Below are positions 263 to 42,452 of a stretch of DNA of 64,000 nt, piece after piece. The notes under the pieces are model-generated. The model was not told the DNA's origin and ran no database searches. It saw nothing but the letters and a program-made list of their open reading frames with translations. Numbering within the stretch: position 1 is the first letter of the stretch; every line of letters begins with the position of its first letter. Source of the DNA: Saccharopolyspora gloriosae (GTDB lineage Bacteria > Actinomycetota > Actinomycetes > Mycobacteriales > Pseudonocardiaceae). The position numbers were made by a program, and so were the translations under genes. The DNA lies in the NCBI RefSeq assembly GCF_022828475.1, contig NZ_CP059557.1, forward strand, positions 4,573,470-4,637,469, given 5' to 3'.

Positions 263-306
263 GCGAAGCACATAGCCCACGTCCAAAAAACGACCACCGG
301 CGGGTT

Positions 307-391
307 CTCAGTGAGCCTCTCGCGAGGACAGCTTTTTCCCTCGTGGCGGAGCCACTAGGGAAAAAGATCCCGCAGCGAGAGGCTCACTGAG
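307..391 (+). repeat. Dispersed long-hairpin element, copy A
   Basis: A 17-bp perfect outer stem (307-323 with 375-391) encloses an 8x8 internal loop (GAGGACAG at 324-331, ATCCCGCA at 367-374). Then come a 10-bp inner stem (332-341 with 357-366) and an apical hairpin GTGGC-GGA-GCCAC. The stem is flanked by GGTTC on both sides and followed by CCGCTACCCGACCACC. Upstream, at about 259-277, is a small hairpin with arms TATGTGC/GCACATA. Copies B, C, D and E elsewhere share this design. The element overlaps the 3' end of the oxidase gene on the minus strand and supplies its stop codon. Function unknown: 3'-end processing or termination, a REP-like element, a MITE or a structured RNA are all possible. 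Confidence 0.85.
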
Positions 392-397
392 GTTCCG

Positions 398-3298
398 CTA
401 CCCGACCACCCAAGCCAGATCACCCCGAAGACCCCCAAGCGAAGCGTGGAGGAGCTCCAGTGGGTGGTGGGCTTCGCGGGGAGTGCCGTGGGCGATCTGC
501 TGGCGGCACGAGACGCCGGTGGCGGCGATGATCGAGGTGGCCGGTTCCGCCTTCACCGCGGGGAAAAGCCGGTCCGCGCCGACGGTCATCGACGTCTCGT
601 AGTGTTCGGCTTCGAAGCCGAACGAGCCGGCCATGCCGCAGCATCCGGCGTCGACCTCTTCGACCTCCGCGCCGGGGATGCGCCGCAGCAGGCCGACCGT
701 GGCGGCCGTTCCGGCCTCCGCTTTCTGGTGGCAGTGCCCGTGGAACAGCACGCGCCGCCGTGCGGGCCAGGTCTGCTCGGACAGTTCCAGGTCGCCCGCG
801 TCGATGGCCTCGGACAGCACCTCCTCGATCTGGCGCACCCTCCCTGCGACGTCGCGGGCCGCCTGGTCGTCCGGCAGCAGCGACAACGTCTCGTCGCGCA
901 AGGTGAGCACGCAGGACGGTTCGCAGCCGACGATCGGAGCGTCCGAACCGGCGAGCCGCGACACCAGGTCGCGCGCCTTGGCCTTCGCATCGTCGACGAG
1001 GCCCTTGGACAGGCTGGACCGCCCGCAGCAGCCCTCGTCGACCAGCCGCACCTCGTAACCCGCGCGTTCCAGCAGCTCCACCGCCGCCCGGCCGATCGCC
1101 GGTTCGGTGTAGGTGGTGAACGAGTCCGCGAGGAACAGGATCGGTCCCCGCGACGCCCGCTGCGGGACGCGGCGCTTGCGGAACCACGAGCCGAGGTGGC
1201 GCCGCTGGAAACGCGGCAGCGGACGATGCTCGGTGATGCCGAGCGCACGCCGCATCAGCTTGCGCAGCAACGGTATCCGGCCCGGCAGGTTCGATAGCGG
1301 AGCCGTGGCGGCGCCCAGCCGGTTCAGCGACCGGATGGACCCGAAGATCCGCGACCGCAGCGGCACCCCGTGCTCGTCGTGGTAGTGCGACAGGGTTTCG
1401 CTCTTGAGCTTCGCCATGTCCACGCCCAGCGGGCATTCGCTCTTGCACGCCTTGCACATCAGGCACAGGTCCAGCACTTCGTGCAGCCGCTCGTCGCCCA
1501 GCGCCCGCTTCGGGTCCGGTTCGGACAGTGCCTTCACCAGGGCGTTCGCCCGGCCGCGGGTGGCGTCCTGTTCCTTGGTCGTCGCCATGTAGGACGGGCA
1601 CATCACGCCGCTCTGGCTTTTGCGGCACAGCCCGATGTTCATGCACCGGTCCGCCGCGCCGCGCATGCCGCCGACCACCTCGAACGACAGCCGGGTGCGG
1701 AACGGTCCGGGCACCGGCTGCTCGGCGTCGCGCAGGTGATCGGTCATGGGGGGCGCTTCCACGATCTTTCCGGGGTTCAGGGTGTCCGCCGGGTCGAACA
1801 GCCGCTTCACCCGGCACATCGCCGCGTAGAGCTCCTCGCCGAACAGCTCCCGGTTGAACTCGCTGCGCGCCAGGCCGTCGCCGTGTTCGCTGGAGTTCAC
1901 CCCGCCGTACTCGCTGACCAGTGATTTCACTTCCTCGGCGACGGCCCGCATCTTCGCCACTTCGCTGGGCTGTGCCAGGTCCACGAACGGCCGGATGTGC
2001 AGGCAACCGACCGAGCAGTGGCCGTAGAAGCCGGCTTTCATGTCGTGGCGGTCGAGGATCTTCGCGAACTTCGCCGTGTACTCCGACAGGTGTTTGGGGT
2101 CGACGGCGGTGTCCTCCACGAACGCCAGCGGCCGGCGCGTTCCCTCACCCGCCGCCATCAGCAGGCCCAGGCTGGACTTGCGGACCTTCAGCAACGCCGA
2201 CTGCTGCTGCGGAGTCACCGCCTCCAGCGTGTGGTAGCCGTGCCCGTGCTTGCGCCACAGCGCGGTGAGCCGCCGCAGCCGCGCCACCAGTTCCGCCTCG
2301 TCGTCGCCGGTGAAGCTGACGAACAGCAGCGCGTCCGGATCGCCTTCCAGGATGGTGCCGAGCGAGGCGTACTCGATGCGTTCGCGCGACAGGTCGAGGA
2401 TGGTGCGGTCCATCAGCTCCACGCCGGACGGGTCGCAGGACAACGCGTCGTCGGTGGCGGCGATCGCGGCCTGCGTCGAGGTGAAGTGGCCGACGGCGAT
2501 GACCGTGGTGCGCGGCTTCGGCACCAGGTTCACCAGAGCTCCGGTGGCCACCACCAGGGTTCCTTCCGATCCCACGACGAACTCGGCGAGGTCGAACGGC
2601 GTCGGATCCGCCAGCCGGTCCAGGCGGTAGCCGCCCGCTCGGCGCCAGAATTCGGGAAAACCACGGGAGATCGCGTCCTGCTCGTCGGCGACGATGCGCG
2701 GAAGTTCCCGGTACAGCCGCGCTTCCAGGGTCGTGCCCGCTGCCCGCCGCCGCCGCTCATCGTCCTCGACGGGACCGAACCTGGCCGTCGAGGCGTCCGA
2801 GAGCACCACGTCGAGTTCTCGGACGTGATCGATCGTCATGCCGTGGCGGACCGAACCGCTGCCCGCCGAGTTGTTGCCGATCATGCCGCCGAGCGTGGCG
2901 CGGTTGCTGGTGGAGGTGTCCGGTCCGAACATCAGCCCGTGCGGGGCGGCGGCCCGGTTGAGCTGGTCCTGCACCACGCCCGGCTGCACCCGCGCGGTCC
3001 TGGACTCCGGGTCCAGTTCGACGATTCGATGCAGGTGGCGCGACATGTCGAGGACGATTCCGGGGCCGACGGTCTGGCCTGCCAGGCTCGTCCCGGCGCC
3101 GCGCGGCACCACCGGGACGCCGTGCTCGGCCGCGGCCGCCACCGTCGCCGCCACATCGTCGGCGTCGCGCGGGAACACCACGCCCAGCGGCGTGATCGCG
3201 TACATGCTGGCGTCGCGGGAGAACAGGTGCCGGGTGTAGTCGTCGAACTCGACCTCACCGGACAGGTCCGCTTTCAGCCGCCGTTCCAGGTCGCTCAT
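398..3298 (-). CDS. FAD-binding and (Fe-S)-binding oxidase, glycolate/D-lactate dehydrogenase type
   Basis: This 966-aa protein joins a GlcD-like flavoprotein to a GlcF-like iron-sulfur half, as in YdiJ-type D-2-hydroxyacid dehydrogenases. The N-terminal third holds the FAD_binding_4 fold (PRGAGTSLAGQ and GNNSAGSGSVRHG motifs), followed by the FAD-oxidase C-terminal domain. Two ferredoxin-like Cys clusters follow (CMNIGLC...CP and CLMCKACKSECP), then two CCG motifs (CCGRSS, CCGMAGS) typical of heterodisulfide-reductase-like domains. It probably oxidises a 2-hydroxy acid such as glycolate or D-lactate at the membrane. The ATG overlaps the stop of the upstream aminotransferase (TGATG), implying translational coupling. 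A longer frame extends upstream but is a shadow of the aminotransferase. The last six residues (LAWVVG) and the TAG stop are encoded by repeat copy A. Confidence 0.9.
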   Translation of the reverse strand: MSDLERRLKADLSGEVEFDDYTRHLFSRDASMYAITPLGVVFPRDADDVAATVAAAAEHGVPVVPRGAGTSLAGQTVGPGIVLDMSRHLHRIVELDPESRTARVQPGVVQDQLNRAAAPHGLMFGPDTSTSNRATLGGMIGNNSAGSGSVRHGMTIDHVRELDVVLSDASTARFGPVEDDERRRRAAGTTLEARLYRELPRIVADEQDAISRGFPEFWRRAGGYRLDRLADPTPFDLAEFVVGSEGTLVVATGALVNLVPKPRTTVIAVGHFTSTQAAIAATDDALSCDPSGVELMDRTILDLSRERIEYASLGTILEGDPDALLFVSFTGDDEAELVARLRRLTALWRKHGHGYHTLEAVTPQQQSALLKVRKSSLGLLMAAGEGTRRPLAFVEDTAVDPKHLSEYTAKFAKILDRHDMKAGFYGHCSVGCLHIRPFVDLAQPSEVAKMRAVAEEVKSLVSEYGGVNSSEHGDGLARSEFNRELFGEELYAAMCRVKRLFDPADTLNPGKIVEAPPMTDHLRDAEQPVPGPFRTRLSFEVVGGMRGAADRCMNIGLCRKSQSGVMCPSYMATTKEQDATRGRANALVKALSEPDPKRALGDERLHEVLDLCLMCKACKSECPLGVDMAKLKSETLSHYHDEHGVPLRSRIFGSIRSLNRLGAATAPLSNLPGRIPLLRKLMRRALGITEHRPLPRFQRRHLGSWFRKRRVPQRASRGPILFLADSFTTYTEPAIGRAAVELLERAGYEVRLVDEGCCGRSSLSKGLVDDAKAKARDLVSRLAGSDAPIVGCEPSCVLTLRDETLSLLPDDQAARDVAGRVRQIEEVLSEAIDAGDLELSEQTWPARRRVLFHGHCHQKAEAGTAATVGLLRRIPGAEVEEVDAGCCGMAGSFGFEAEHYETSMTVGADRLFPAVKAEPATSIIAATGVSCRQQIAHGTPREAHHPLELLHASLGGLRGDLAWVVG

Positions 3299-4464
3299 CA
3301 CGCCTCCTCCAGCACCCGCAGGGCCGCGGTGATGCCGCCCTGGTCGATCGGGACGCCCGCCAGTTCCAGGCCTATCTGCACTCCGGCGAGCGTCCCGGCC
3401 AGCGACACGTCGTTGAAGTGCCCGAGGTGGCCGATGCGGAACACGGTGCCCGCGACCTTCCCGAGCCCCGCGCCCAGCGACATGTTGAACCGCTCCAGCA
3501 CCAGGCGGCGGAACGCGTCGGCGTCGTGGCCTTCCGGCAGCAGCACCGCCGTCAGCGCCGGGGAGTGCTCGCGTTCGTCGAGGCACAACGTCTCCAGGCC
3601 CCATCCGCGCACCGCCGCGCGGGTCGCCTCGCTGTGGCGCCGGTGCCGCCGGAACACCTCCGGAAGGCCCTCCTCGTCGAGCATTCGCAGCGCTTCGAGC
3701 AGGCCGTAGAGCAGGTTCGTCGCCGGGGTGCTGTGGAAGAAGCCCCGTTCGTTCGCGGACAGGATCGGCCCCCAGTCCCAGTAGGACCGGGGCAACGTCG
3801 CGGATTCGCTTGCGCGCAGGGCCTTCTCGCTGATCGCGTTGAAGCCGAGGCCGGGCGGCAGCATCAGGCCCTTCTGGGAGCAGGAGATCGTCACGTCGAC
3901 GCCCCACTCGTCGTGGCGGAAGTCCACCGAACCCAGCGACGAGATCGTGTCGACCAGCAGCAACGCCGGATGCTGCGTCTCGTCGATCGCTCGGCGCACG
4001 TCGCTGATGCGACTGGTCACCGCCGTGGAAGTCTCGTTGTGCACGGCGCACACGGCCTTGATCTCGTGCTGCGAGTCGGCCGCCAGTCGCTCCCGCACCA
4101 CCTCCGGGTCGACGCCGTGGCGCCAGTCGCCCGGCACGAAGTCCACCCGCAGCCCCAGGCTCTCGGCCATCTCCTGCCACAGGGTCGCGAAGTGGCCGGT
4201 CTCGAAGGCGAGCACGCGGTCACCGGGGCTGAGCGTGTTCACCAGCGCCGCCTCCCACGCGCCGGTGCCGGAGGACGGGTAGATCAGCACCGGTCCGGTG
4301 GTGCCGAACACCGGCCGCACCGCGCTCAGCACCTCGCGGGCGAGGGCCGCGAATTCCGGTCCGCGGTGGTCGATGGTGGGCGCGGACATCGCGCGAAGAA
4401 TGCGATCCGGAACGTTCGTGGGGCCGGGAATTTGCAGGAAGTGCCGGCCGATCGGCTGCGCCAT
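3298..4464 (-). CDS. Serine-glyoxylate / alanine-glyoxylate aminotransferase, class V
   Basis: This 388-aa fold-type I PLP enzyme matches the serine-pyruvate/alanine-glyoxylate aminotransferase family in length. The N-terminus contains the family motif IPGPTNVPDRIL and HRGPEF. The probable PLP lysine is in SCSQKGLMLPPG. It would interconvert glyoxylate and glycine using serine or alanine as amino donor. It is cotranscribed with the hydroxyacid oxidase downstream, which could generate glyoxylate from glycolate, and is divergent from a MatC-like carrier. The set suggests glycolate/glyoxylate or 2-hydroxyacid metabolism; the substrates are inferred. Confidence 0.87.
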   Translation of the reverse strand: MAQPIGRHFLQIPGPTNVPDRILRAMSAPTIDHRGPEFAALAREVLSAVRPVFGTTGPVLIYPSSGTGAWEAALVNTLSPGDRVLAFETGHFATLWQEMAESLGLRVDFVPGDWRHGVDPEVVRERLAADSQHEIKAVCAVHNETSTAVTSRISDVRRAIDETQHPALLLVDTISSLGSVDFRHDEWGVDVTISCSQKGLMLPPGLGFNAISEKALRASESATLPRSYWDWGPILSANERGFFHSTPATNLLYGLLEALRMLDEEGLPEVFRRHRRHSEATRAAVRGWGLETLCLDEREHSPALTAVLLPEGHDADAFRRLVLERFNMSLGAGLGKVAGTVFRIGHLGHFNDVSLAGTLAGVQIGLELAGVPIDQGGITAALRVLEEA

Positions 4465-4611
4465 CGGAATCTCTCCTGGTCTATTCAGAACGCTTGACCT
4501 TCAATTGTGTCCGGGGTCATACTTCCCCGGCGACGAGATAGTGATCTCGCATCACGGAATTCGATTCCGCTCCCTCCCCGAGCCGACGACCGCCTCGAAT
4601 CGAGGAGTCAC

Positions 4612-5925: not shown

Positions 5926-5931
5926 TCCGGT

Positions 5932-5959
5932 GGCCCGCCGAGCACCGGCTCGGCGGGCC
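5932..5959. terminator. Hairpin after the MatC-like gene
   Basis: Arms GGCCCGCCGAG and CTCGGCGGGCC (11 bp, perfect) enclose a 6-nt loop a few bases after the stop at 5925 and before the IclR start at 5980. No U-tract follows, as is common for actinomycete terminators. Confidence 0.6.
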
Positions 5960-5979
5960 GAACCGGATAAACTACGGAA

Positions 5980-6753: not shown

Positions 6754-6768
6754 ACCACCCATCGCTCA

Positions 6769-8732: not shown

Positions 8733-9024
8733 CGTTGCCCGCCGATCCGTGCCGCGAAACGGCACAGCTTGTTTGTGACGGCATAACCGTACGAGCACAT
8801 CAAAGGCGAGGTCAAGGAATCCGACCCCGCTCCGAGCGTGCGCGAAGCACCGTGACCCGACTCACACATCGACTTCCGGGGCGCTTGAAATACACAGGTC
8901 GAGCGCGACGATGCACCGGGCGGGAGATAGGTCGAGCAGTGGCAACGAGAGGCAGTTGGAGCCTTGATCAGCCTCACGACGTTTCCCGGACATTGATCAC
9001 GTCGCGTTGTCACAGGAGATCCGG
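8733..9024. other. Intergenic region between divergent genes
   Basis: Presumed promoter region for the CoA-transferase (leftward) and the 35-aa small protein (rightward). No coding potential or clear operator could be recognised. Confidence 0.4.
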
Positions 9025-11988: not shown

Positions 11989-12075
11989 CAGTCCTCACCC
12001 GACATCATCTTCGTCTTGTCAGCGGCGGAGCCGCTGAGCAGTGACCAGCTAGAGCAGGCCGACCACCGGCGGGTT

Positions 12076-12159
12076 CTCAACGGCTTCCCCGCGAGGACAG
12101 CGATTTCGCTGTGCACGGCATACATGAGAAATCGATCCCGCAGCGAGGAAGCCGCTGAG
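12076..12159 (+). repeat. Dispersed long-hairpin element, copy C
   Basis: The outer stem 12076-12092 pairs with 12143-12159 (15 of 17 positions). The internal loop strands GAGGACAG (12093-12100) and ATCCCGCA (12135-12142) are identical to copy A. The inner stem CGATTTC/GAAATCG differs from copy A yet still pairs. GGTTC flanks both sides and CCGCTACCCG follows. A short hairpin (AGCGGC-GGA-GCCGCT) lies upstream at about 12021-12035. The element sits between the SARP gene and the convergent DedA gene. Confidence 0.82.
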
Positions 12160-12193
12160 GTTCCGCTACCCGGACACCCACGCAAGCCATTTC

Positions 12194-12835
12194 TTACGAA
12201 GGCAGTCGTGCGTTGGTGGTCTCTTCTTCTTGCGCCTCCGCCGTCCGACCGCGACGCCGCCACAGCACGATCCCCGCCAGCAACAGCAGGACCGCCAGGG
12301 CGGCCGGAATCACGCCGAACAACCCCGACAGCTCGGTGTAGGACGCACCGGCGAGGTAGCCGACTCCGCCTTCCCCGCACGCCCACACGACCCCGGCGAG
12401 CAGGCTGTAAGGCGCCATCCGCCGGTACGGCAAGCCGGACGCGCCCACCAGGTGCGGGGCCGCCGAGCGCACCAACGGCACGAAGCGGCACGGGATGAGC
12501 GCCGGACCACCGCGACGGCGGAACAGCTCGCTAGCCCGGTCCCACGCTCGCGGTGCGCGGCGGACGAATCGGGTGGTGCGCAGCCGGGGGCCGAGGCGCA
12601 GGCCGGTGTAGAAGCCGAGCGCGTCTCCGCACACCGCCCCGAACACGGCGAACACCACCACCAGCCACAGGTCGAGCGTCCCCGCGTAGGCCAGCGCACC
12701 CGCGACCAGCAACGGCCCCAGCGTGGGCACGAACGGGCTCACGACCAGGATTCCTTCGACGAAAACCAGCGCCGCCAGCAACGCGTATCCCGCGAGCGGA
12801 GGCAGCTGCGTCAGCCATTCACCGGGTGAAGGCAT
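12194..12835 (-). CDS. DedA-family membrane protein, possible immunity partner
   Basis: This 213-aa protein matches DedA/SNARE-associated proteins: FVEGILVVSPFVPTLGPLLVAGALAYAG, then FAVFGAVCGDALGFYTGLRLG, RRRGGPALIPCRFVPLVRSAAPHLVGASGLPYRRMAPYSLLAG and a C-terminal helix. The Arg-bearing RFVPLVR segment corresponds to the conserved DedA re-entrant region. Family members transport lipids; Bacillus PetA has been linked to transbilayer distribution of phosphatidylethanolamine. The ATG overlaps the stop of the phospholipid methyltransferase, so the two are translationally coupled. Because cinnamycin-type peptides bind phosphatidylethanolamine, a role in producer immunity is a plausible inference. 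Confidence 0.82.
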   Translation of the reverse strand: MPSPGEWLTQLPPLAGYALLAALVFVEGILVVSPFVPTLGPLLVAGALAYAGTLDLWLVVVFAVFGAVCGDALGFYTGLRLGPRLRTTRFVRRAPRAWDRASELFRRRGGPALIPCRFVPLVRSAAPHLVGASGLPYRRMAPYSLLAGVVWACGEGGVGYLAGASYTELSGLFGVIPAALAVLLLLAGIVLWRRRGRTAEAQEEETTNARLPS

Positions 12836-20440: not shown

Positions 20441-20455
20441 AAGCCGAACGGTCCA

Positions 20456-20536
20456 CGGAATCCTCACGAGGACAGCGGTTTCGCCGCGTAGCAGGGCTAC
20501 CTGAGAAATCGAGCCCGCAGCGAGGAAACCGCTGAG
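20456..20536 (+). repeat. Dispersed long-hairpin element, copy D (within the lantibiotic operon)
   Basis: The outer stem 20456-20467 pairs partly with 20520-20531. The loop strands are GAGGACAG (20468-20475) and AGCCCGCA (20512-20519), and the inner stem CGGTTTC/GAAATCG pairs through one G-T wobble. The 5' CTCAG part of the outer stem is missing, while CTGAG is present at the 3' side. It fills most of the 131-bp gap between the hydroxylase and the ABC ATPase, ending 35 bp before the ATPase ATG, so it could influence expression of the exporter relative to the upstream genes. Confidence 0.7.
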
Positions 20537-20571
20537 CGACCCACTACGCAGCCCATTACGCAAGGAGCCCT

Positions 20572-21582: not shown

Positions 21583-22464
21583 GTGACCCGCACCGCCCCG
21601 GAACTCGTCCGCCCACCCGCACCGGACTCGGACCTGCGCTCGCGCGCGGCGGGTGAATGGCGCGCGGGAAGCATGGTGTGGCGCCGGGAGGTGCTCCACT
21701 TCCTGCGGGACCGGACGCGGATCACCGTGTCACTGCTGCAACCGCTGCTGTTCCTCTACGTGCTGGGAATCGGGCTGTCCCGACTGGTCGCCGGGGCCGG
21801 TGGCGGTGAACAAGCCGCCGGTGAGTACATGCTGTTCCTGTTCCCCGGAGTGCTCGTGATGGCCGCGCAGGCGCCGGCGATCTCGGTGGGCGCGTCGATC
21901 GTGTGGGATCGCCACAGCGGGTTCCTGCGGGAGATGCTGGCGGCTCCCGTGTTCCGCAGCACCCTGCTGCTCGGCAAGTGCCTCGGCGGCGCCTCCGTGG
22001 CCACCGCACAGGGCACCGTGGTGCTGCTCAGCGCGGGCCTGGTCGGAGTTCCGTACCACCCGGGGCTGTTCGCGATCCTGCTCGCCGAACTCGCGCTGGC
22101 CGCGCTCGCGATGACGGTGCTGGCCGCAGTGGTGGCGGTGACGATCAAACGGATGCAGACGTTCAACACGGTGCTCACCGTGCTGATCACGCCCCTGATG
22201 TTCCTGTCCGGACTGATGTTCCCGATCAGCGCGATGCCCGCCTGGATGGCTTCGCTGACCCTGGTGAACCCGCTGACCTACATCGTCGACGCGATGCGCC
22301 ACACCATCCTCGATCGGCTCGGCGAGGCACCGTCCTCGGTGATCTTCGCTCCGGTCCATTGGGGACAGTGGGAGGTGCCGCCGGCCGTGGAACTCGGGTT
22401 GGTGCTGGGGTTCGCGGTGGTAGCACTAACCATCGCAGCTCAGCGCTTTGCTCGTCGGGGTTGA
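21583..22464 (+). CDS. ABC-2 type permease (CinH/DrrB-like)
   Basis: The 293-aa membrane protein has six predicted helices and the ABC-2 pattern of daunorubicin-type exporters: REVLHFLRDRTRITVSLLQPLLFLYVLGIGL, FPGVLVMAAQAPAISVGASIVWDR, FLREMLAAPVFRSTLLLGK and PLMFLSGLMFPI. It follows the ATPase closely and is the last gene of the lantibiotic operon. Hairpin copy B begins about 45 bp after its stop, in a position where it could act at the transcript's 3' end. Confidence 0.9.
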   Translation: MTRTAPELVRPPAPDSDLRSRAAGEWRAGSMVWRREVLHFLRDRTRITVSLLQPLLFLYVLGIGLSRLVAGAGGGEQAAGEYMLFLFPGVLVMAAQAPAISVGASIVWDRHSGFLREMLAAPVFRSTLLLGKCLGGASVATAQGTVVLLSAGLVGVPYHPGLFAILLAELALAALAMTVLAAVVAVTIKRMQTFNTVLTVLITPLMFLSGLMFPISAMPAWMASLTLVNPLTYIVDAMRHTILDRLGEAPSSVIFAPVHWGQWEVPPAVELGLVLGFAVVALTIAAQRFARRG

Positions 22465-22508
22465 GCTACTCCACGGCTCGTTCTGGCTTGGTGGTCGGGT
22501 AGCGGAAC

Positions 22509-22593
22509 CTCAGTTGGTCTCTCGCTGCGGGATCTTTTTCCCAAGTGGCTCCGCCACGAGGGAAAAAGCTGTCCTCGCGAGAGACCAACTGAG
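22509..22593 (-). repeat. Dispersed long-hairpin element, copy B
   Basis: Read on the minus strand it matches copy A nearly throughout, but the outer-stem bases differ on both arms in a compensatory way: CTCAGTTGGTCTCTCGC pairs perfectly with GCGAGAGACCAACTGAG. The loop strands GAGGACAG and ATCCCGCA and the apical GTGGC-GGA-GCCAC hairpin are unchanged. The flanking CCGCTACCCGACCACCAAGCCAG is also shared with copy A. It lies about 45 bp beyond the CinH-like stop. Confidence 0.87.
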
Positions 22594-22710
22594 AACCCGC
22601 CGGTGGTCGTTTTTTGGACGTGGGCTATGTGCTTCGCACATACAGGCACGGCCTTCGGCCGCAAGGCAGGCGGGGCTTCGCCCGCCCTTCGCGGACTTCG
22701 CCGCCAACGG

Positions 22711-22854
22711 CACGGCTGCGCCGCAAGACACGGCTGCGCCGCAAGACACGGCTGCGCCGCAAGACACGGCTGCGCCGCAAGACACGGCTGCGCCGCAAGA
22801 CACGGCTGCGCCGCAAGACACGGCTGCGCCGCAAGACACGGCTGCGCCGTGAGG
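22711..22854 (-). repeat. 18-nt tandem repeats, set B
   Basis: Seven identical consecutive 18-bp units (CACGGCTGCGCCGCAAGA on the plus strand) start at 22711, followed by one or two degenerate units. On the minus strand the unit is TGCGGCGCAGCCGTGTCT, the same family as set A at 181-262. Unit length is a multiple of three, so open frames run through it, but they encode only CGAAVS repeats and have no independent support as genes. There are no spacers, so it is not CRISPR. Confidence 0.85.
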
Positions 22855-22954
22855 CACGGCTGTCGGCGGGGAAAACGGCCTGTGGGCTCAGTGGGTGGGT
22901 TTGGTGCTGGTGGAAGTGCGGCACGGGCTCTCGGAATCCGGGTGGCGAGCGGTG

Positions 22955-28369: not shown

Positions 28370-28371
28370 GC

Positions 28372-30270: not shown

Positions 30271-30477
30271 TCACGACGCGCCGTCGCGCAAGGTGGCCGG
30301 GCGGAGGTCGGTCCAATGCTCTTCGACGTAGGCCAAGGCCTCTTCCCGCGTCGCTCCGTCGAGCACCACGTCCCAGCCCGCGGGGACCTCGGCGAACCCG
30401 GGCCACAGGGAGTGCTGGAGTTCGGTGTTGCGCAGCACCAGGAAAGCGCCGTCCTCGTCGTCGAACGGGTTGGTCAT
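30271..30477 (-). CDS. MbtH-family NRPS accessory protein
   Basis: The 68-aa protein matches MbtH in length and motif: [35 protein letters not shown] and [15 protein letters not shown]. These proteins bind and activate NRPS adenylation domains. It overlaps the NRPS stop by 4 bp (ATGA), as expected for a coupled partner. Confidence 0.95.
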
Positions 30478-33400
30478 CGGTCCTCCTCGTGTTCGGTGTG
30501 GTCACGCAGGTGCCCGCGCAGGATCGTGCCGAGCTCGCCGACGTGCTTCGGCTGCATGAGCCGGTGGTGCGGGCGGTCGATCCGGTAGGTGGTGAACGGC
30601 CCGTTGAGATGAGCGCGCCATCGTTGCGGATCCGCACCCTCCTGGGTTCCGATGTGGACGGTGTCACCGCCGTGGACTCCCGGCCGATGCCCCGGCATCA
30701 GGTTCGCGTTGTGCCGGGACGTTTCGACGAGATCGGCGATGTCCTGCTCGGTGAGTTCGGCGAGCGCACTGCCCTCTTGCCGCAACGCGGCCGACACCTC
30801 GGCGAACCCGCCCTCCACGCCGTGGTCCCGGCCGATGGACGTGAGCAGCACGCGGTGAATCCGCTCCGGGTCGATCACGTCGTCGCCGGCGGGTTCACCG
30901 CCGAGCGGCGGGTCGATGAGGCACAGCAACCCGGCTTCGGCACCGAGCCGCACGGCCATCGCGTGCGCCACCAGACCACCGAACGACCAGCCCACCAGGT
31001 GATACGGCCCCGTCGGGCGCACTGAGCGGAGTTCGGCGAGGTAGCGCTCGGCCATCGCGTCGATGTCGCGCGGCAGGTCCGCCACTCCGCCCGCGCCGAG
31101 CCCTTGCAGGCCGTACACCGGGTGCGCCGGGTCGAGGTGCGCCAGCAACCCGGAGTACAACCAGGCCAGCCCGCTCAGCGGGTGCACGCAGACGACCGGC
31201 GCGGCGTCGCCGCCGGTGCGGAACGGCACCAGATGCCCGGCGGGCGCCTCGGCGGCACCGAGCACCCGTTCCAGCCCGGCGGGCGTTCCCGCGGCGAACA
31301 CGTCCCGGATGTGCGGCCGGATGCCGAACGCCGCCTCGACGCGATCCACCAGGCGCACCGCCAGCAGCGAATGTCCGCCGAGTTCGAAGAAGTTCTCCGC
31401 CCGGCCGACCCGTTCCACGCCGAGCACCTCGGCGAACACCGCGCACATCGCCTGCTCCGACGCGGTGCCCGCCGTGTCGGGCTCGGCGTCCGCCCGGCCC
31501 GGGTCGGGCAGCCGGTCGCGGAGCAGTTTCCCGTTGCGCGACAACGGAAGCTCATCGGTGGTCAACAACCGCGACGGGATCATGTGGGCGGGCAGCCGCT
31601 CCGCCAGGTGCGCGCGCACGGACGTCAGGTCCACCTCGCGCGGCACCAGGTGGCCGCTGAGCCTGCGGTCCTGGTCGTCGTGGTCGTGCACCGCGACGCC
31701 CGCCGCCCGCACCTGCGGATGTTCGGTGAGCACCGCTTCGATCTCCCCGAGTTCCACGCGGTGTCCGCGGATCTTGATCTGGTCGTCGTCGCGGCCGTGG
31801 AAGCGCAGCACGCCGTCCACGTCGCGCGAGGCGAGGTCACCGGTGCGGTACATGCGGGTTCCGGGCGGACCGAACGGGTCGGCGACGAACCGTTGCGCGG
31901 TGAGCGCGGTGCGGTGCAGGTAGCCGGTCGCCACGCCGCGCCCGGCCAGGTAGAGCTCACCCACCACACCAGGCGGAACGGGGTTGAGCCACCGGTCGAG
32001 GACGCGGCAACTCGTGTTCCACAGTGGACTTCCGAGCGGCACCGCCGCCGGTTGCGCTCCCGCCACCGGATGCGCGGCCGACCAGACCGTGGTCTCGGTG
32101 GGTCCGTAGCAGGCGAGGACCTCGCAGCCGAGTTCACCGAGCCGCTCGGCCAGTGGTCCGGGCACGAACTCGCCCCCGATCACGGCCCGCACGCCGTGCA
32201 GGTGCCGCGGCCGTTCCGCGAGCAGCGTGTGCCACAGCGACGGCGTGGCCTGCATGGCTCGCACCCGGTGCCGATCGATGAGGTCGAGCAGCAGCGCCGG
32301 GTCGCGGGTGGCGTCCCGGTCGGCGAGCACAACGGCCGCGCCGGTGACGGCGCCCAGGTACAGCTCCGGCACCGACATGTCGAATCCGGCGGGTGCGGTC
32401 GCCAGCACCCGGTCCCCCGGCCCGAGCCGCAACCGCTCGCCCAGTGCGCACAGCAGGTTCAGCACGGAGTCGTGCGGGACCACCACCCCCTTCGGCCTCC
32501 CCGTCGAGCCGGACGTGTAGATCACGTACGCGGTCCCGGCCGGGATCGATGCGGGCTCACCGGGGCCGTTCGCGCAGGTGAGCGACCCGGCCTCGTCGTG
32601 GGTGACGATCAACGCGGGGCGGGCGTCGTCGAGCAGGTCGGTGGCGCGGCGCGCCGGGAGATCCGGTTCGAACGGGAGGTAGGCGGCGCCGGTGGCGGTC
32701 ACCGCGAGCATGGCGGCGAGCAGGTCGGGGCCACGGCGCAGGCCGAGCGCGACGAGCCGGCCAGGCCCAGCGCCGCGCGCGGTGAGTTCGGCGGCGATCC
32801 GGCCCACCCGCTCGGCGAGCTCCCGGTAGGTCAGCTCCCGATCGTCGTGGATCAGCGCCGTCGCCTCCGGGGCGCGTTCGACCTGGGCCGTGAACAGCCG
32901 GTGCACCGTTCCGGTCGGCACCTCCCGCGCGGTGCCCTCGCCCAGCAGCCGGGTCCGCTCGGTCTCGGTGAGCACCGGCAGCTCGCCGATGCCCCGATCC
33001 GGTTCGGCGACGGCGGCCCGCAGCAACCGTTCGAGGCGGCCGATGAGCGCCCGTGCGGTGGCCGGGGTGAACAGTTCCGCGTCGTACTCCAGCACACCGC
33101 CGATCCCGGCGAGCGCACCGCGTTCGTCGTACCCGGGTCGCAGGCTCCACAGCAGGTCCATCCGCGAGGAGGAACCGTGCAGGTCCAGGGGTTCGACGGT
33201 CGTGCCGGGCAGGTCGAACTCGGTGGGCGGGGTGTCCTGGAAGGCGAGCATCACCTGGAACAGCGGGTGGTGCGCGAGTGAGCGCGGCGGCCGCAGCACT
33301 TCGACGAGCCGCTCGAACGGCAGCTCCTGGTGGTCGAACGCGTCCAGGTCCACCGAGCGGATGCGCCGCAGCAGCTCGGCGAACGTGGGTTGCCCGGACA

Positions 33401-36400
33401 GGTCCGCGCGCAGCACCACGGTGTTCACGAAGCAGCCGATCGCGTCGTGCAGCGCGGCGTCGCCCCGGCCCGCGACGGGCGTGCCGATGGGGAGGTCCTC
33501 GCCCGCGCCGTGCCGGTGCAGCAACACCGCGAGTGCGGTGTGCAGGACCATGAAGAGGCTGACGTCGTGGTCGTGGGCCAGCCGGGCCGCCGCCGCGTGC
33601 AGGTCGGCGCCGAACTCGATCTCGACGGTCTCCCCGACGTGCGCGGAGGCGACCGGACGCGGGTGGTCGGTCGGCAGCGCCAGGAGCTCCGGTGCTCCCT
33701 TCAACGTCCGCGTCCAGTGCTCGACCTCGTGATCGGTACCGATTTCCCGTTGCCACAGCGCGAAATCGGCGTACTGCACGGCATCAGTGGTCCACTGTGG
33801 AATTCCGCCGCCGGTTCGTGCGCGGTAGGCGAACGACAGGTCGCGTGTCAGCGGCGCGAACGACCAGCCGTCGGCCGCGATGTGGTGCAGCAGGATCAAC
33901 AGCACGTGCCTGCCGGGCGCCGTGGTGTAGAGGGTGACGCGCAGCGGCGGCTCGGACGCCAGGTCGAAGCGGCGCGCGGAGTCGGCGGCCAGCCGCTGCG
34001 CCAGTTCCGCATCGGGCACCGGGACGTGCTCGAACGACAACGTGTCCGAGTCGAGAACTCGTTGCCATGGCCGGTCTTCCGCTACCGCCACCACGGTGCG
34101 CAGGATCTCGTGCCGGTCCACCACGTCCTGCCACGCCGCCCGCAGCGCGTCCGGGTCCAGCGGACCGCTCAGCCGATGCGCGAACCGCAGGTTGTAGGTG
34201 GCGCCGAACTCGTCGAACCCGCTGATGAACCACAACCGCCGCTGCGCGGGCGACAGCGGAACGCGCTCGGGGCGCCGGCCCGCGCGCAGCACCGGACGGG
34301 ACGCCGAGTCCTGCTCGACGATGCGGCCAGCGAGCGCCGCCACGGTCGGCGCGTCGAACAGCGTGCGGATGTCGAGTTCAACGCCCAGGCCGGAGCGGAT
34401 CCGGTTGATGAGCCGAGTCGCCAGCAGCGAATGCCCGCCACAGTCGAAGAAGCCCTCGTCCACGCCGATGCCCGGCAGGCCCAGCGTCGCGGCGAACGCC
34501 TCGCACAGAAAGCGCTCCGCCGGAGTGCGCGGCGGCCGTCCCGGCGCCCGTCCCGACACCGGGCTCGGCAGCGCCCGCCGGTCCAGTTTCCCGTTGGGGG
34601 TCAACGGGATCTCCTCGATCGCCGACACGAACGACGGCACCATGTGCCGGGGCAGCACGGCCGCCGCGTGGCCGAGCAGCACCTGCGGGTCGACCTCCGC
34701 CGCGAGCACCACGTAGGCCACCAGGCGCGGGCCACCGGCGTCCTCGCGGGCGAGCACCACGGCTCGGGTGACCGAATCGTGCCGCTCCAGCACGTGCTCG
34801 ACCTCGGACGGCTCGATCCGGAATCCGCGCACCTGCACCTGCTGGTCGATGCGCCCCAAGTACTCCAGCGACCCGTCGGGCAGGTATCGGGCCAGGTCGC
34901 CGGAGCGGTACATCCGGGTGCCGGGCGGCCCGAACGGGTCGGCGACGAACCGGCCCGCGGTGAGCCCCGGCCTGCCGAGGTAGCCGTCCGCCACGCCACG
35001 GCCCGCGACGTAGAGCTCACCGGGACAGCCCGGCGGCACCGGGCGCAGCGCGCCGTCGAGCAGGTACAGCCGCAGATCGTCCAGTCCGGAACCGACGACG
35101 CTGCGCGTCTCCGCCGGATCGCGCAGTTCCAGGTAGGTGCTGTGCACGGTCGTCTCGGTGATCCCGTACATGTTGATCACGCGGGGGCCGTGTTCGATTC
35201 GGTCCCGGATGCGCGCCGGGTCCAGCGCCTCGCCCCCCAGCACGACGACGCGCACCGAGTCCGGCTCGGCTCCGGCCTCGACGAGCTGGTAGTACGCCGA
35301 CGGGGTCTGCGCCAGCGCGGTGACCTGTTCGCGGGCCAGCAGTTCCCGGAACTCGCCGGGCGCCCGGCTCACCTCGAACGGCACCACGACCAGCCGCCCG
35401 CCTCGCCCGAGTGCGCCCCACAGCTCCCACACCGACATGTCGAACGCGTAGGAGTGGAACAAGGTGTGCACGTCGGCCGGACCGAACCCGAAGTGCCGGT
35501 CGGTGATCTCCAGCAGCCGGTGCACGTTGTCGTGCGAGACGACCACGCCCTTCGGTGTGCCGGTCGAACCGGAGGTGTAGATGACGTAGGCGGTGTCGCC
35601 CGGCGTGATCGGCACCCCGAGGTCGCCGTCGGCCATCCCGGCCGCGGCCGCCTCGACCGCGTCGTCGTCCAGCACCAGCACGGATACCTCGGCGGGCAGA
35701 GATCCGGCCGAACATCGCAGCGACACCACGAGTTCCGGGGCCGCGTCGGCCAGCGTGGCGCGCAGCCGCTCCGCCGGGTGCTCCGGGTCCAGCGGCAGGT
35801 AGCCGGCGCCGGACTTCAGCACCGCCAGCAGCGCCACCACGAGTTCCGGGCCGCGCGGCAACGCCAGCGCCACCAGCCGCCCCGGCCCCGCTCCCCGTGA
35901 CACCAGCAGCCGCGCCAGCCGGTTCGCCCGCGCGTTGAGCTCGCCGTAGGTCAGCCGCCGCGCCCCGAAGGACACCGCGGGCGCGTCCGGCCGGTCCGCC
36001 GCGTGCCGTTCGAACAGCTCCGGCAGCACTCCGGACCGGTGCTCCGGCGGCGGCGCGGGCGCGCGGTATTCGCCGGGCAGCAGCAGGTCGATCTCGCCCA
36101 GCCGCGCCGCCGGTGCCGCGCTGAGCCGTTCCAGCAGTGCGCCGAGCCGTTCCAGCAGCAGCCGCGCCGCCTGCTCGTCGGCGACGTCCTCGCGGTGGTC
36201 GAGGCGAAAGCCGAGCCGGTCGCCGGGCAGCACGATCAGCGACAGCGGGTAGTGCGTGCCGTCGGACACCCGCAGGTCGGTGATTCGCGGTTCCGGCAGG
36301 TGGCGCTGCGCGTCCTGCCGGTCCGGCGGGTAGTTCTCGAAGACGAGGACGGTGTCGAACAGTTCGCCGTGCCCGGCGATGGCCTGCAGCCGGGTCAGGT

Positions 36401-39188
36401 CGACGTGCTGCTGCTCCAGCACCATGAGCTGCTGTTCACGCAGCGCCGCCAACGCTTCGGCCGCGGTGCGGTTCGGATCGAGGCGCACCCGGACCGGCAC
36501 CGTGTTGATGAGCAGCCCGACGATGTCCTCCACTCCGGGCAGCTCGGCGGGACGTCCGGAGACGGTGGCGCCGAACACCACGTCGTCGCGCCCGGTCATC
36601 GCCCCCAGCAACACGCCCCAGGCCAGTTGCACGAGGGTGTTGAACGTGAGCCCGTGGTTTCGCGCGGCGCGCCGGATCCGTTCGGTCGCGGCGGCGTCGA
36701 GCTCGTGGTGCACCCGCCCGTGCCGCGCGGCCCCGCCGCCGGGCGCGGCCACCAGCGTCGGTTCGTCCACATCGGACAACAACTTGCGCCATGCGGAGTC
36801 GCGCGCGGTCGAGTCCTGTTCGGACATCCATTCCAGGAAAGCCCGGTACGGCACCGGATCCGGCAACGGCTCGGCCGCGTACAGCGCGAACAGATCTCGG
36901 ATCAGGATGGGCATCGACCAGCCGTCGATGAGGATGTGGTGCGTGGTCAGCACGAACACGTGCCGCTCCGGCCCGGTGCGCAGCAGCGCCGCGCGCAGCA
37001 CCGGCGGATCGCCGAGGTCGAATCGGCGGGCGCGGTCGGCGTCGAGGTAGCGGGTCACGTCGGCCTCGGTGGGCGCGTCGACCTCGGTCCAGTCGACGAC
37101 GAACCGGGACGGCCACAATTGCACCGGAGCGCCATCGGTTCCGTGCCGGAATCCGGCGGTGAGCTGCGGATGCCTGCGCAACAACGCGTGCACCGCGCCC
37201 CGCAGCGACGCGGCGTCGAGCGCGCCCGTGAGCTCGAATCCGAACTGCACCAGATACGGATCGGTGCCGTGCCGGTCGAACAGGGAGTGGAACAGCAGCC
37301 CCTGCGCCAGCGGCGGCAGCGGCAGCACCTCGCCGCCGTCGCGTTCGGTGCGATGCCGCGCCTCGGCGGCCAGCTCCGCGAGCACCTCGAACCAGCGCCG
37401 GGCGAGCTCGTCGACCTCGTGTTCCGGCACGAGCTCGCCCGCCCAGGACCAGTTCGCGGTCAGACACGGGCCGTCGGCACCGTCGGTGATCAACGAGTCG
37501 AGTTCGATCGGATGGGCCATCGGCAGGTCGGCGGGCATCGCCGACCCGAGCACCCCCGACCACGGCTGCGGACCCCAATCCTGCTCACCCGGGGCGTCGA
37601 ACCGCCCGAGGTAGTTGAACCCGAGCTGCGGGCGGCTACCGGTGGCCAGGCCCGGCGCGCTCTGCGGGTTCAGGTGGCGCAGCAGTCCGTGGCCGATCCC
37701 GTTGCGCGGCACCGAATCCAACGCGGCGCGGACCCGGTCGATCGGCTCGTCCCACCCGAAGTTCTCGGGGCGCGCACCTCGGAGGTCGAACCGCACGGGG
37801 AACCGGGTGGTGAACCAGCCGACGGTGCGCGACAGGTCGAGTTCCTCGGTGAATTCCTCCCGCCCGTGCCGCTCCACGTCGAGCAGCACCGCGTCGTCCG
37901 CGCCCGGTCGGTCGCTCACCGCCAGCGCGAACGCCGCGAGCAGCAGGGTGTCGACCGGGCAGCCGAACACGGCGGCGGCGTGGTGCACCAGTTCGCCGGT
38001 GACCTCGCCGGACAGCGTCAGCGAGCGGTGCGCGCGGGTGGCCTCCAGGTCGGTCCACGGCGACAGCGGCCGCGAGGTCAGCCGCGAATCGGAGGCCTCG
38101 GCCAATTCCTTCCACAGTGGATACTCGGCCTGCACTTCGGGCTGTTGCGCCCGGTCTCCCAAAGCACGCGCCCATTCTGCGAAGGAGGTGCCGATCGGGT
38201 GCGGTCGAGGTTCACACCCCTCGGCGACGGCACGTCCGGCCTCGCGCAGGTCGTCGAGCAGGATCCGCCAGGACACGCCGTCCACCGCGAGGTGGTGCAC
38301 GGCGAACACCAGCGTTCCCGGCTCCGCACCGGCGTCGAGCCACACCGCCCGCACCACCCGGCCCGCCGCCGGATCCAGGCTTGCCTGCGCCGATCGCACG
38401 TGCTCGGCGGTGAGCTCCCGCAGTTCGACCTCGGTCCGGCCTCGGACGTCCTCGCGGACCAGCTCGCACCCGGCGTCCTCGGCGACCGACAGCGACCACA
38501 ATCCGTCCGTTGTGGATAGTCGTAAGCGCAGCATGTCGTGCTGTGCCACCACGGCGTGCAGCACGCTTCGCACGCGGTCCTCGTCGAACCCGGCAGGCGT
38601 CCGCACCACCGCGCACTGCGCGAAGCCCGCCACCGAGCCGCCCAGCTCCCGGAACCAGTGCATGATCGGCGTCAACGGCAGAAGCCCGCGGTCCGCGGTC
38701 CGTTCGCGGCGGACCGGCGCGGCGGGAGCTCCGGCGTGCTCGGCGAGCTCGGCGACGGTGGGATGCCGGAACACGTCGGCGGTCCCGATCCCGAACCCCG
38801 CCCGTCGTGCCCGGCTGGCGAACTGGATCGCGGTGATGCTGTCGCCGCCGAGCTCGAAGAAGTCCGCGCCCGGCGACACGTCCGCGAGCCCGAGCACCTC
38901 CCCCACCAGCGTCCGCAGCACCTGCTCGGCGTCCGTCGCGGACTCCGGGAGCACCGCTCGGGCAGTCGCTCCCGCGGGCGCGGGCAACGCGGACCGGTCG
39001 AGTTTTCCGTTGCGGGTCAACGGGAACTCGTCCACGAACACGATCTCCGACGGCACCATGAACGCGGGCAGCGCCGCGTCGGCCCGCGCCGCGACCGCGT
39101 CCGCGTCGGGCTCGTCGGCCACCACGTAGCTCACGATGCGCCGCCTGCCGGGACGATCCTCGCGCAGCATCGTCGCGACCTGCCGCAC
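30474..39188 (-). CDS. Non-ribosomal peptide synthetase, C-terminal segment (end of A1, T1-E, C2-A2-T2, C3-A3-T3-TE)
   Basis: This 2904-aa frame begins inside the first adenylation domain and continues, roughly, as: A1 tail (1-65), T1 ([11 protein letters not shown]), epimerase (to ~600; [16 protein letters not shown]), C2 (HHILIDG), A2 (~1075-1560), T2 (FFDCGGHSL), C3 (HHIAADG), A3 (~2110-2560), T3 ([10 protein letters not shown]) and thioesterase (GWSFGG). By-eye specificity codes are DMWAVGMVHK for A2, close to Thr codes, and DMPQVGCVWK for A3, resembling Gly codes (Gln278, Trp331). The GTG at 39188 has no convincing ribosome site. With the preceding frame it would make one protein of about 3,785 residues over 30474-41830. 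It overlaps MbtH. Confidence 0.9.
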
Positions 39189-41830
39189 CCCGGGGCGCCG
39201 TGCAGCGCGGCATCGATCTCACCGAGCTCGATGCGGTAGCCGCGCAGCTTCACCTGGCCGTCCGCGCGCCCGGCGAACTCCAGCAGCCCCTCCGCGTTCC
39301 ACCTGGCCAGATCGCCGGTGCGGTACATCCGCTCGCCCGGCGGGCCGGACGGGCAGGCCACGAACCGGTGCGCCGTCGCTCCCGGCGCACCGAAGTACCC
39401 ACGAGCCATCCCCGCGCCCGCCAGGTACACCTCGCCGACGACTCCGGGCGGCACCGGCCGCAGCGCGTCGTCGAGCAGGTGGATCCGCTTGCCGTCGATC
39501 GGCGCCCCGATCGGCACCGTCGCGGATTCCCGTGCCGTCATGGCCGGAACCGGCAGCCGGGTCGCGAACACCGTCGTCTCCGTCGGCCCGTAACCGTTGA
39601 TCACCGTCAGTCCCGGCACCGCGTCCTGCACGCGACGCACGGCGGCGGGCGACACCACGTCGCCGCCGGTCCACACCTGGCGAACTCCGGTCAGGCAAGC
39701 CGGATTCTCCTCGCTGAGCGCGTCGAACAGGCCCGCCGTCAGCCAGAGCCCGGTGACACGGTGCGCGGCGATGGTCTCGGCGAGCACGCCCAGGTCGGCG
39801 GAGTCCGGCGGAGCCAGCACCACCTCACCGCCGGTGAGCAGCGGCACCCACAGCTCCAAGGTCAACGCGTCGAAGGCGTGCGGCGAGTGCAGCAGCACCC
39901 GCCGCGCGCCGCCCTCCGCCCACCACCGGTCGGCGGCCAGCCGCACCAGGTTGTCGTGGGTGATCGCGACGCCTTTCGGGACGCCGGTGGAACCGGACGT
40001 GAACATCACGCAGGCGAGCCGATCCGGCGCCGGTTCCACGGCCGGTGCGGCGGGTGCCGCTCGTCGCGGGTCGGCGAGGTCGAGCACCGGGCCTCGATCC
40101 CGGAACCACGTGGCGAACTCGTCGGTCGCCACATTGGTGACCAGCAGCTCGATCCCTGCGGTGACCGCGATGGTGCGCAGGCGGTCCGCCGCGTCACCCC
40201 GGTGCAGCGGCACGTAGGCCGCGCCCGCCCGGACCACGGCCAGCACCGCCACCACCAGGTCCACGGACCGTTCCACCAGCAGTCCGACCGGTGATTCCAC
40301 GCCCACTCCGGCCGCGACCAGCCGGTCGGCGAGCGCGGCGGAGCGGGCGTCCAGCTCGCGGTAGGTCAGGCGCTGCCCCGTCGCCGCCGAGGACACCGCG
40401 ACCGCCTCGGGCTCGCGACCGACCCGCTGGGCGAACAGCGCGACCGCGTTGTCCGCTCCCGTGGTCGACGGTGCCCCGGAACCCGCCGCGAGCACCTCGG
40501 CCCGCTGCTCGGGCGACACCGTCTCCAGCTGTCCCAACGGGGTGTCCGCCGGTAACTCCGCCAGCTGGCTCAACAACCGCAGGAACCGGTCCCGAGCCGC
40601 CGCGAGCAGGTCCTCGTCGTGGTTGGCGGGGTTCGCGTCGAAGTCGAACCGGAGCTCCCCGTCACCCCGGTCGTAGGCGACCACGGAAAAGTCCTCCGAC
40701 GGCGGGGCCTGCACGTTGTGCACGCTCGCCGAGCAGTCGCCGAATCGCAGGCCGTAGGCGAACTTCTGGATGTTCACCACCGGACCGAACAACACCCGGC
40801 CGTCCTCGGGATAGCCGAGTTCGCGGCGCAACCGCTCGCCCCGGTACCGCTGACGGCGCTGCACCTCGGCGACCTCGGCGGCGACCTGCGCGGTGAACTC
40901 GCCGAGGGTCGCGGCCGGATCTACGCGCAGCCGCAACGGCAGCACGTTCGCCGACATCGACGGCACGGTGCGGCTGAGCTCCGTGGCCCGCCCCGGAACC
41001 GGCAGGCTCAGCACCACGTCGCGGCTGCCCGTCACCGCGTGGGTGTGCAGCGCGGTGGCCGCCACGATCAACCGCGACCAGCGCTGCCCGAGCCGCTGCG
41101 CGGCGGCGCGCAACTCGGCGAACCCGGTCTCGTCCAGGCCGTCGCTCAGACGCAGCGACCGCGCCGAGGCCGCCGCCGGACGCGCCGCCATGCTCAGGAA
41201 TCCGGGACCGTCCGCGAGCCGGTCCAGCCACCACCGCCGGTCCGCGTCGAACTCGGCGGAGCGCCGGTATTCGTTCTCTTCGGACAGCAGCGCGGCCGAC
41301 GCGGACCAGCCGCCGGCGGGCACCGGCTCACCGGAGGCATGGTGCCCGTAAATCTCCGACACGCGCTGGGAGAACAGCGTCATGCCGACACCGTCGAGCG
41401 CGATGTGGTGCACCCACTGGAACAGCAGGTGGCGGTCGTCGGCGATCCGCAGCACCGAGGCGCCGAACAGCGGGCCGGTCGCCAGGTCCACCGGCCGGTC
41501 CAGTTCCGCGCGCATCAGGGCCAGCGCCGCGGCGTGCGGTTCAGGCTCGGCGCGGAGGTCCCGCACGGCGATGTCCGGCTCACCGGTGCGGGGGCGGCGA
41601 CGCGGACGGCCGTCGGCGCCTTCGGCGAACGTCACGTTGATCGCCTCGGCGTCGCGCGCGGCGAGGCGGACGGCCGTCACCAGCGAGTCGACGTTCAGCG
41701 GCCCGGTGATGTCGACGTACTCGCCCCACAAGTACTGCGAGCGCGCTTCGGAGCGGGCCTGCTCGGCGATCCAGATGCCGAGTTCGGCTTCGGACACGGG
41801 CGATTCGACGGAGTTTCCGCCCAGGTTCAT
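39131..41830 (-). CDS. Non-ribosomal peptide synthetase, N-terminal segment (C1 and most of A1)
   Basis: This 899-aa frame starts at ATG 41830 and holds an EntF-like N-terminal condensation domain ([17 protein letters not shown] at 141-147). It then holds adenylation domain A1 up to motif A8 ([27 protein letters not shown]), where it runs off frame and ends without the A10 lysine motif, carrier or epimerase. The missing parts follow at once in the next frame, so the gene appears split by a one-base loss at about 39188-39191. The A1 code reads DALWWGGVF(K), similar to Val codes such as DAFWIGGTFK. A leading C domain suggests an acylated or preloaded first residue. Confidence 0.88.
39188..39195. 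other. Apparent frameshift in the NRPS gene
   Basis: The plus strand reads CCCCGGGG here. One extra C would restore a continuous frame through the A8-A10 region (…HGAPG then [11 protein letters not shown]…). A homopolymer run makes either a sequencing error or a real phase-variable or inactivating deletion possible. Confidence 0.8.
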
Positions 41831-42452
41831 CGGTCATCCTCACCGGCAGTGGTCTGCGCTGTGTCGGCCTCGGATGGCCGCGCCGGTACCGGGGCGGCCC
41901 ACGAGACATCGGCCCCGGACAGCACGGGGCACGATGGCGTTATCGGTGGTTCGGATTCGTTCGATCTCGTCCGGTCAGCGGCGAAGGCGCTGAACCGTGA
42001 CCGCCTGGAAGGCCTTGCGAGCTCTCTTTCCGGGATACCTGAAGAGTTGATCCCGCAGCGACGAAGTCGCTCAGCCGCGACCCGCGAGCACTCGCGGAAT
42101 GTCAGGGCGACGTTCGCCGTATCTCGTCCGGCTGCAGCTCCCGCTCGGTGGGCGGCGATCTTCCTCGCTCACGTGCCGACCCTTGCACGCGCGAAGCGAT
42201 CAGTCGACACAAAGCACCTATTCAGAGCAATTCGGACATCTCACTCAATGCCGGTGCTTACATTCGGGTTGCGCTCCCGCGACACGGACGAGCATTCGAG
42301 GAGCACCGCGCACCGGGCGTGTCGGCGCCCGGGAACCACTGCTCACGGCGCCGCCGACGGCGTGGAACCGAGATCGGCGGCCGGCCTGATGACTTCAGTG
42401 GAGTCGTGCTTCCGGACGCGGCGCGGGCCGCCCGGACCCGCGCCGCCGTCGC
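41831..42452. other. Intergenic region upstream of the NRPS gene
   Basis: It holds the NRPS promoter side (41831-41960), repeat copy E (41971-42077), and about 370 bp with small overlapping ORFs on both strands that show no domain. Nothing else was recognised. Confidence 0.5.
41971..42077 (+). repeat. Dispersed long-hairpin element, copy E (degenerate)
   Basis: It starts with a TCAGCGGC-type hairpin as in copy C and keeps ATCCCGCA at 42050-42057 followed by GCGACGAAGTCGCTCAG, but the GAGGACAG strand and the inner stem are eroded. It is taken as a decayed member. Confidence 0.55.

Follow-up and report, generated by a model that had tools for sequence, protein, structure and literature searches.

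We analyzed a family of long hairpins in a 64,000-nt stretch of the Saccharopolyspora gloriosae genome (contig NZ_CP059557.1; the whole stretch is called the window below), and our findings indicate that its members are probably non-autonomous mobile non-coding DNA elements of the REP/ERIC-like kind whose stems reassort between copies. The initial annotation of the window had described a five-copy family and expected further copies in the genome and its relatives. Searches with a covariance model or an exact pattern confirmed the latter, and as a genome total the number five did not stand: the pattern GAGGACAG-N20-50-ATCCCGCAGCGAG matched 145 times in the genome of the window (G000) and not once in the reversed-pattern control, and a covariance model (R1) built from 35 non-redundant copies (4 of 39 were left out of the alignment, and six loci had been skipped earlier) gave at least 150 matches. 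The exact loop pattern was present in 23 of 390 genomes of the bacterial family and in 7 of 46 genera, and all six genomes of the window's genus carry it, with 12, 13, 62, 88, 145 and 208 copies. Phages, plasmids and viral contigs gave no match, the viral scan being made with the exact pattern only. Named loci among the matches come from Saccharopolyspora, Actinopolyspora and Halopolyspora; G367, another genome of the window's genus, has stretches in common with Saccharopolyspora sp. HNM0986 loci at full identity. The 1.24-Mb region G000:C1:2430000-3670000 holds no more than 6 among the 150 model matches listed.

Each unit is composed of a left module with a small hairpin, a spacer and an imperfect palindrome of ~100 nt, together roughly 190 bp or more. 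The small hairpin is GTGCGAAGCAC-like or GTCAGCGGCGAAGCCGCTGA-like, and arrays of about 18-nt mini-hairpins often precede it. The palindrome begins with a foot (GCGGGTTCTCA / TGAGGTTCCGC, with GTT opposite GTT); then come the outer stem, in which 17 pairs were counted, the internal loop (GAGGACAG / ATCCCGCA), the inner stem and the apex. Where the left module is of the type seen in copy A of the window (Table 1), the palindrome follows it in 93 of 93 places, and for the copy B type in 33 of 36. The foot and the internal loops are the least variable parts, and the stems vary yet remain paired: among 20 copies of G367, collected by BLAST without requiring the loop pattern, variation was 0.5% in the foot, 1.9% in loop one and 10% in loop two (by eye mostly at one or two sites), compared to about 20% in the stems, 21% in the left module and 22–28% in the tail and spacer. 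In 19 of these copies we counted 24 mismatches in 323 pairs; the 20th copy, L291, has no pair count.

Some copies depart from this plan. In L054, L069, L033 and L046 the palindrome is inverted relative to the foot or the foot is perfected, as expected from recombination or template switching between the arms. L124, L184, L185 and L186 have the same ~100-nt stretch immediately next to the foot, as though one insertion had hit each of these elements, and L138 has a different, coding-like end there; another repeated flank, GGCTTGGTGTGTGGTTGG-like, lies on the gene side of L011, L014, L015, L128 and L209. The triloops of the small hairpins are GNA in 283 of 406 cases, compared to 10 of 167 elsewhere in the window. 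GNA triloops are linked to stable DNA mini-hairpins, and selection for such mini-hairpins was considered as an explanation; it is weakened because 254 of the 283 GNA triloops are the single sequence GAA.

Placement at gene ends and turnover of sites

For the analysis of placement we used 162 copies, leaving out matches that lie within 60 nt of a locus end, keep fewer than 10 of the 17 outer pairs, or deviate at more than 2 positions of either the left loop or the 13-nt right block. Retrieval of these loci by pattern or model makes the pairing and loop figures of this set lean high. Gene calls were taken from our own codon-usage script, trained on three long frames, and not from annotation. The constant trait of placement is the gene end. 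Only one of the 162 copies was called inside a gene; the right-hand gene (in the orientation of the copy) is on the opposite strand in 127 of the 162, and its stop codon is at most 60 nt away from the hairpin in 111 (including two copies where the called frame ends inside the element) and at most 45 nt away in 109. We observed 72 convergent, 79 co-directional and 7 divergent gaps for 158 copies, the other 4 having no called neighbor or lying within a called gene, whereas at the same loci 16.8, 89.8 and 51.5 would be expected from the number of element-free gaps and 9.9, 82.4 and 65.8 from their length. Convergent gaps are enriched and divergent gaps depleted for hairpin copies, and in co-directional gaps their orientation is biased 53 to 26 (p 0.003).

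Among the 51 other copies, L001, L002, L003, L013, L159, L161 and L201 lie by eye beyond a terminator-like hairpin, L189 follows the RNase P RNA gene, and some are located upstream of a gene start. A scan for hairpins of at least 9 bp had a match in the stretch from stop codon to element in 6 of 121 cases and, for genes on the left, past the stop in 14 of 95, so that by this test closeness to a terminator is a minority trait. A TTTT tract within about 30 nt past the foot on the gene-sense strand is present in 69 of the 162 copies and missing in 93, and a consensus scan gave none for copies A or D of the window at their outer foot. Genes enclosed by closely spaced copies appear to code for ordinary proteins, named by eye (PurK, GroEL and others). 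The same gene, by eye PurK, stands between two inward-facing copies in both species represented by L025 (1500–2923) and L098 (1944–3372).

The occupancy of sites was compared between G367 and its near-identical relative G368 at 13 sites, namely 10 of the 12 pattern copies of G367 and 3 further copies of G368. Nine sites are shared, one lies at a contig end and three differ, so that presence differs at 3 of 12 informative sites although both genomes are 98–100% identical there. At L247, ~190 bp separate the stop codon from a terminator-like hairpin in G368 and ~7 bp in G367, the hairpin itself differing in a few bases. At L232, G367 has 199 bp in the place of 21 bp in G368, and by eye the gene frame now ends at a junction TAG. 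At L237 the element is missing in G368 and other differences occur nearby. In the comparison with relatives, the site of copy B is empty in G369 and G371, that of copy C in G369, G370 and G371, and at the site of copy D three relatives carry other sequence; such empty sites are ~80% identical, too diverged to give exact element ends.

By selecting long coding matches with a copy at the predicted place we hand-picked 16 copies whose site is also occupied in Saccharopolyspora sp. NFXS83 (L189/L046, L118/L113, L198/L048, L185/L071, L207/L055 and L157/L097 were left out). For eight copies (L008, L018, L020, L140, L142, L181 and two in L188) no copy was found in the matching NFXS83 stretch, which speaks against retention.

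The strongest rival explanation is that the host uses the hairpin as a 3′ end device, a bidirectional terminator or transcription insulator or a stabilizer of mRNA 3′ ends, which was duplicated and kept for its use. Stop codons within 60 nt in 111 of 162 copies, the strong enrichment of convergent gaps, the bias in co-directional gaps, the copy behind the RNase P RNA gene, the T tract past the palindrome in 69 copies and the 16 retained sites would all agree with it, but the tract is missing in 93 copies and some copies lie upstream of gene starts. Furthermore, several copies are situated beyond an existing terminator-like hairpin by eye, though the scan found this in 6 of 121 cases only, and sites were gained or lost between near-identical genomes. 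The placement also follows from selection against promoter insertions. Overall, we regard a host-used device as unlikely.

Paired changes in the stems

Stem bases had been proposed to change on both arms together, and this was supported. In the 35 copies 91.5% of the cells are paired (76.6% after shuffling), both-sided change occurs in 20 of 35 pairs (15.7 shuffled), and 180 cells show both-sided change compared to 55.6 on average after shuffling; relatedness is left in place by these shuffles, and sliding the partners abolishes the signal. Copying or conversion between copies can match both arms without stepwise compensation, so the paired stems show constraint or correction, and this may act at the DNA or at the RNA level. 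That the covariation marks selection on an RNA was not supported in view of the stem-allele mosaics, the whole-stem differences at shared sites and the mismatch types described in the following.

A few outer-stem alleles recur in G000, the commonest one in 41 of the 162 copies. The same allele can occur with various apex bases, flanks and left modules, in combinations that are not random, so that the copies are mosaics. At the 16 sites shared with NFXS83, 56 outer-stem positions differ on both arms and 8 on one arm only; four of these eight fall in a single pair, and in another both-arm changes are missing altogether. Identity in the core (loops and inner stem) is 94–100% at 11 of the 16 sites and 67–80% at the other 5, and in the sequence outside the hairpin 45–86%. 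The stem differences at shared sites mostly span several bases and correspond to alleles that already exist elsewhere. Of 10 copies shared by G367 and G368, 3 carry clusters of changes on the two sides of the apical or inner stem, 4 are changed on one side only, in stem or foot (one copy belongs to both groups), and 4 are unchanged in the paired part. Template switching during replication is a mechanism for such matched changes according to the accessible text of PMC8794818. At such low divergence, matched multi-base changes point to conversion between copies or template switching more than to stepwise compensation.

One could assume that this mutational upkeep is sufficient, i.e. that template switching during replication perfects the arms and makes the covariation without any structural constraint. 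The clustered two-sided changes in 3 of 10 copies shared by near-identical genomes, the mechanism published for them and the perfected or inverted foot in L033, L046, L054 and L069 go in this direction. However, the 8-nt internal loops and the foot mismatch would then be perfected too, yet they are the least variable parts, and the match of most multi-base differences to alleles found elsewhere is not accounted for. Upkeep alone is therefore improbable in our judgment.

We next consider the type of the mismatches. Counting each sequence context once in G000 and its relatives, we observed 38 G-T and 28 A-C mismatches in the outer stem and 19 and 23 in the inner stem, 57 to 51 in total. Raw counts are 25:18 (outer) and 13:23 (inner) in G000 and 47:24 and 14:18 in the relatives, and in the G367 copies the outer stem gives 17:2, by eye mostly at one shared position. 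Some G-T counts lean to RNA-type pairing; taken together, there is no consistent G-U bias. Rfam gave no match in the window at the curated score, and for three loci the best score was 19.5 bits, located away from the element, compared to a cut-off of 50; with curated and loose thresholds the only strong match is the RNase P RNA beside a copy. A structured RNA, small or regulatory, with many gene copies would explain paired stems with fixed loops and the G-T excess in some raw outer-stem counts. Since Rfam has no match, the contexts are nearly balanced (57:51), the inner stem is at 13:23 and the copies are dispersed over lineage-specific sites, we consider such an RNA very improbable.

Copies in the window

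The features of the five copies in the window are listed in Table 1.

Table 1. Hairpin copies and associated features in the window
Feature	Position	Strand	Basis
Copy A, left module with small hairpin TATGTGCGAAGCACATA, plus spacer	248..299	+	163 nt at 96% shared with copy D
Copy A, imperfect palindrome: foot, outer stem, fixed internal loops, inner stem, apex	300..398	+	inverted repeat, fold, model
Copy B, left module of type GTCAGCGGCG...GCCGCTGA	12016..12046	+	motif at 12018
Copy B, palindrome	12070..12169	+	model match, fold, site comparison with relatives
Copy C, decayed palindrome between two plus-strand genes	20445..20547	+	model match, fold, gene calls
Copy D, palindrome	22499..22599	-	model match, inverted repeat, fold, gene calls
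Copy D, spacer (T6 tract on plus strand) and left-module small hairpin	22600..22652	-	repeat comparison
Array of 18-nt mini-hairpin repeats, part of copy D's unit	22675..22862	-	repeat family with spacing 18
Copy E, remnant: left module and right half of palindrome	41972..42074	+	right half 42036-42074 at 79%

Three of the five copies first described, those at 307, 12076 and 22509 (A, B and D), are full hairpins, whereas the one at 20456 (C) is decayed and the one at 41971 (E) a remnant. The loop strands, taken to be fixed throughout, are invariant in the three full copies but not in all five, and the GGTTC flanks said to be shared are missing at 20456. Fold z-scores against shuffles are -8.9, -3.6 and -8.3 for copies A, B and D, and model E-values 3.6e-29, 2.8e-23 and 1e-28, copies A and B themselves being among the sequences of the model alignment. 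Copy C has the right loop AGCCCGCA, a z-score of -2.2 with 6 of 200 shuffles folding as well, and a model E-value of 1.5e-11. Copy E is without GAGGACAG, its fold does not stand out from shuffles (z 0.23; 109 of 200 shuffles fold as well), and it is absent from the 11 matches that the model gave with an E-value of at most 1.

The 163 nt common to copies A and D are in inverted orientation, yet the outer stems of the two copies differ on both arms. A minus-strand gene called at 12194–12781 ends just past the palindrome of copy B, and a plus-strand gene called at 21673–22464 stops just ahead of that of copy D. A long minus-strand frame starting at 4180 ends at 398, within the foot region of copy A, so this copy may supply its stop codon; L132 is a similar case of a gene frame ending in the element. 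The stretch 22470–22861, belonging to the unit of copy D, matches many other copies of the same genome over 250–390 bp. The mini-hairpin array past copy D is arranged head-to-tail, and many other copies have an array of this type ahead of them. At 30474–41830 there are two very long frames on the minus strand (2887 and 900 codons) with internal repeats; judged by size they are perhaps a modular synthetase.

Known families, mobilizer and origin

Intergenic palindromic repeats are a well-known broad kind according to the accessible text of PMC3733652, PMC12306157 and PMC2267715, in which Saccharopolyspora is not mentioned. The hairpin family belongs to the broad REP/ERIC-like kind in that it has many foldable intergenic copies. 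REP/BIME and REPIN sequences, moved by RAYT Y1 transposases, are likewise high-copy intergenic palindromes with lineage-specific sites that often lie after gene ends (PMC3733652, PMC12306157, as far as accessible). In contrast to REP, the hairpin family has a ~100-nt palindrome, a longer unit, a second small hairpin and fixed internal loops, and the GTAG tag at the foot is not constant (64 of 162 copies on the gene-sense strand, with GTGG in 86). We searched for the Y1 transposase (PF01797) and found matches in G367 and G368 only, and none in G000, G369, G370 and G371, which hold more hairpin copies. The high copy number, the GTAG feet and the Y1 matches in the genomes G367 and G368 would speak for a REP-type family with RAYT/IS200-IS605 Y1 transposases as its movers, but this is the least probable of the explanations considered, as the copy-rich genomes lack a Y1 match and GTGG feet prevail.

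Other systems show partial similarity. In architecture ERIC, which comes from different bacteria, resembles the hairpin family: it is a long and imperfect palindrome between genes, similar in size and with paired changes, but is not known to have fixed internal loops of such kind. Group IIC introns insert just beyond transcription terminators, but the intron ribozyme is far longer than the hairpin element, and a reverse transcriptase (PF00078) was matched in G371 only, once, and not in the other five of the six genus genomes (G000 and G367–G370). Integron attC sites are recognized by structure as a folded single strand with variable stems and fixed unpaired bases. Their R boxes read GTTRRRY/RYYYAAC, whereas the hairpin foot in the 35 copies, compared by eye, is GGTTCTCA/TGAGGTTCC (GTTCTCA, GTTCCGC); the integron integrase was not searched for. 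We found no earlier description of the hairpin family in the literature, where subscription papers were mostly outside the search, so a prior description is possible; the accessible text of the small-RNA paper on S. erythraea (PMC3827479) contains none.

Several observations weigh against mobile elements as the explanation. At L232, L237 and L247 there is no clear target duplication of the type that classical MITEs of DDE transposases have along with terminal inverted repeats of the whole unit, the exact unit ends being uncertain here, so that loss by deletion is possible. The 16 sites retained across species would also fit host use, and the outer-stem G-T counts of the relatives (47:24) and of the G367 copies (17:2) would fit an RNA. 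Finally, the two copy-richest genomes of the genus have neither a Y1 nor a reverse transcriptase match, i.e. the mobilizer was not found, and none was seen by eye among the genes between closely spaced copies, on which no family search was run.

Nevertheless, we consider non-autonomous mobile DNA hairpins the probable explanation. A trans-acting factor would read the folded strand by means of the fixed foot and loops and would place copies near transcript ends, and copies landing in promoter regions would be lost. Conversion between copies, possibly helped by template switching, may replace a stem as a matched pair, and copies losing loops or pairing would disappear. The covariation would then be real, yet result for the most part from copying under the element's own structural requirement. 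More tentatively, the family could form a new class of mobile DNA hairpins in which two parts have separate roles: the invariant foot and loops would be read on folded single-stranded DNA by a recombinase or transposase that is neither Y1 nor a reverse transcriptase, and the outer stem would be swapped as a matched pair while the site keeps its element.

If the family is mobile, a mobilizer of long palindromes would be expected in these actinobacteria. Stem covariation is often read as proof of a functional RNA; here its course can be traced at shared sites and in near-identical genomes, and the matched multi-base changes make the family a suitable case on which covariation searches can learn to tell selection apart from conversion or template switching.

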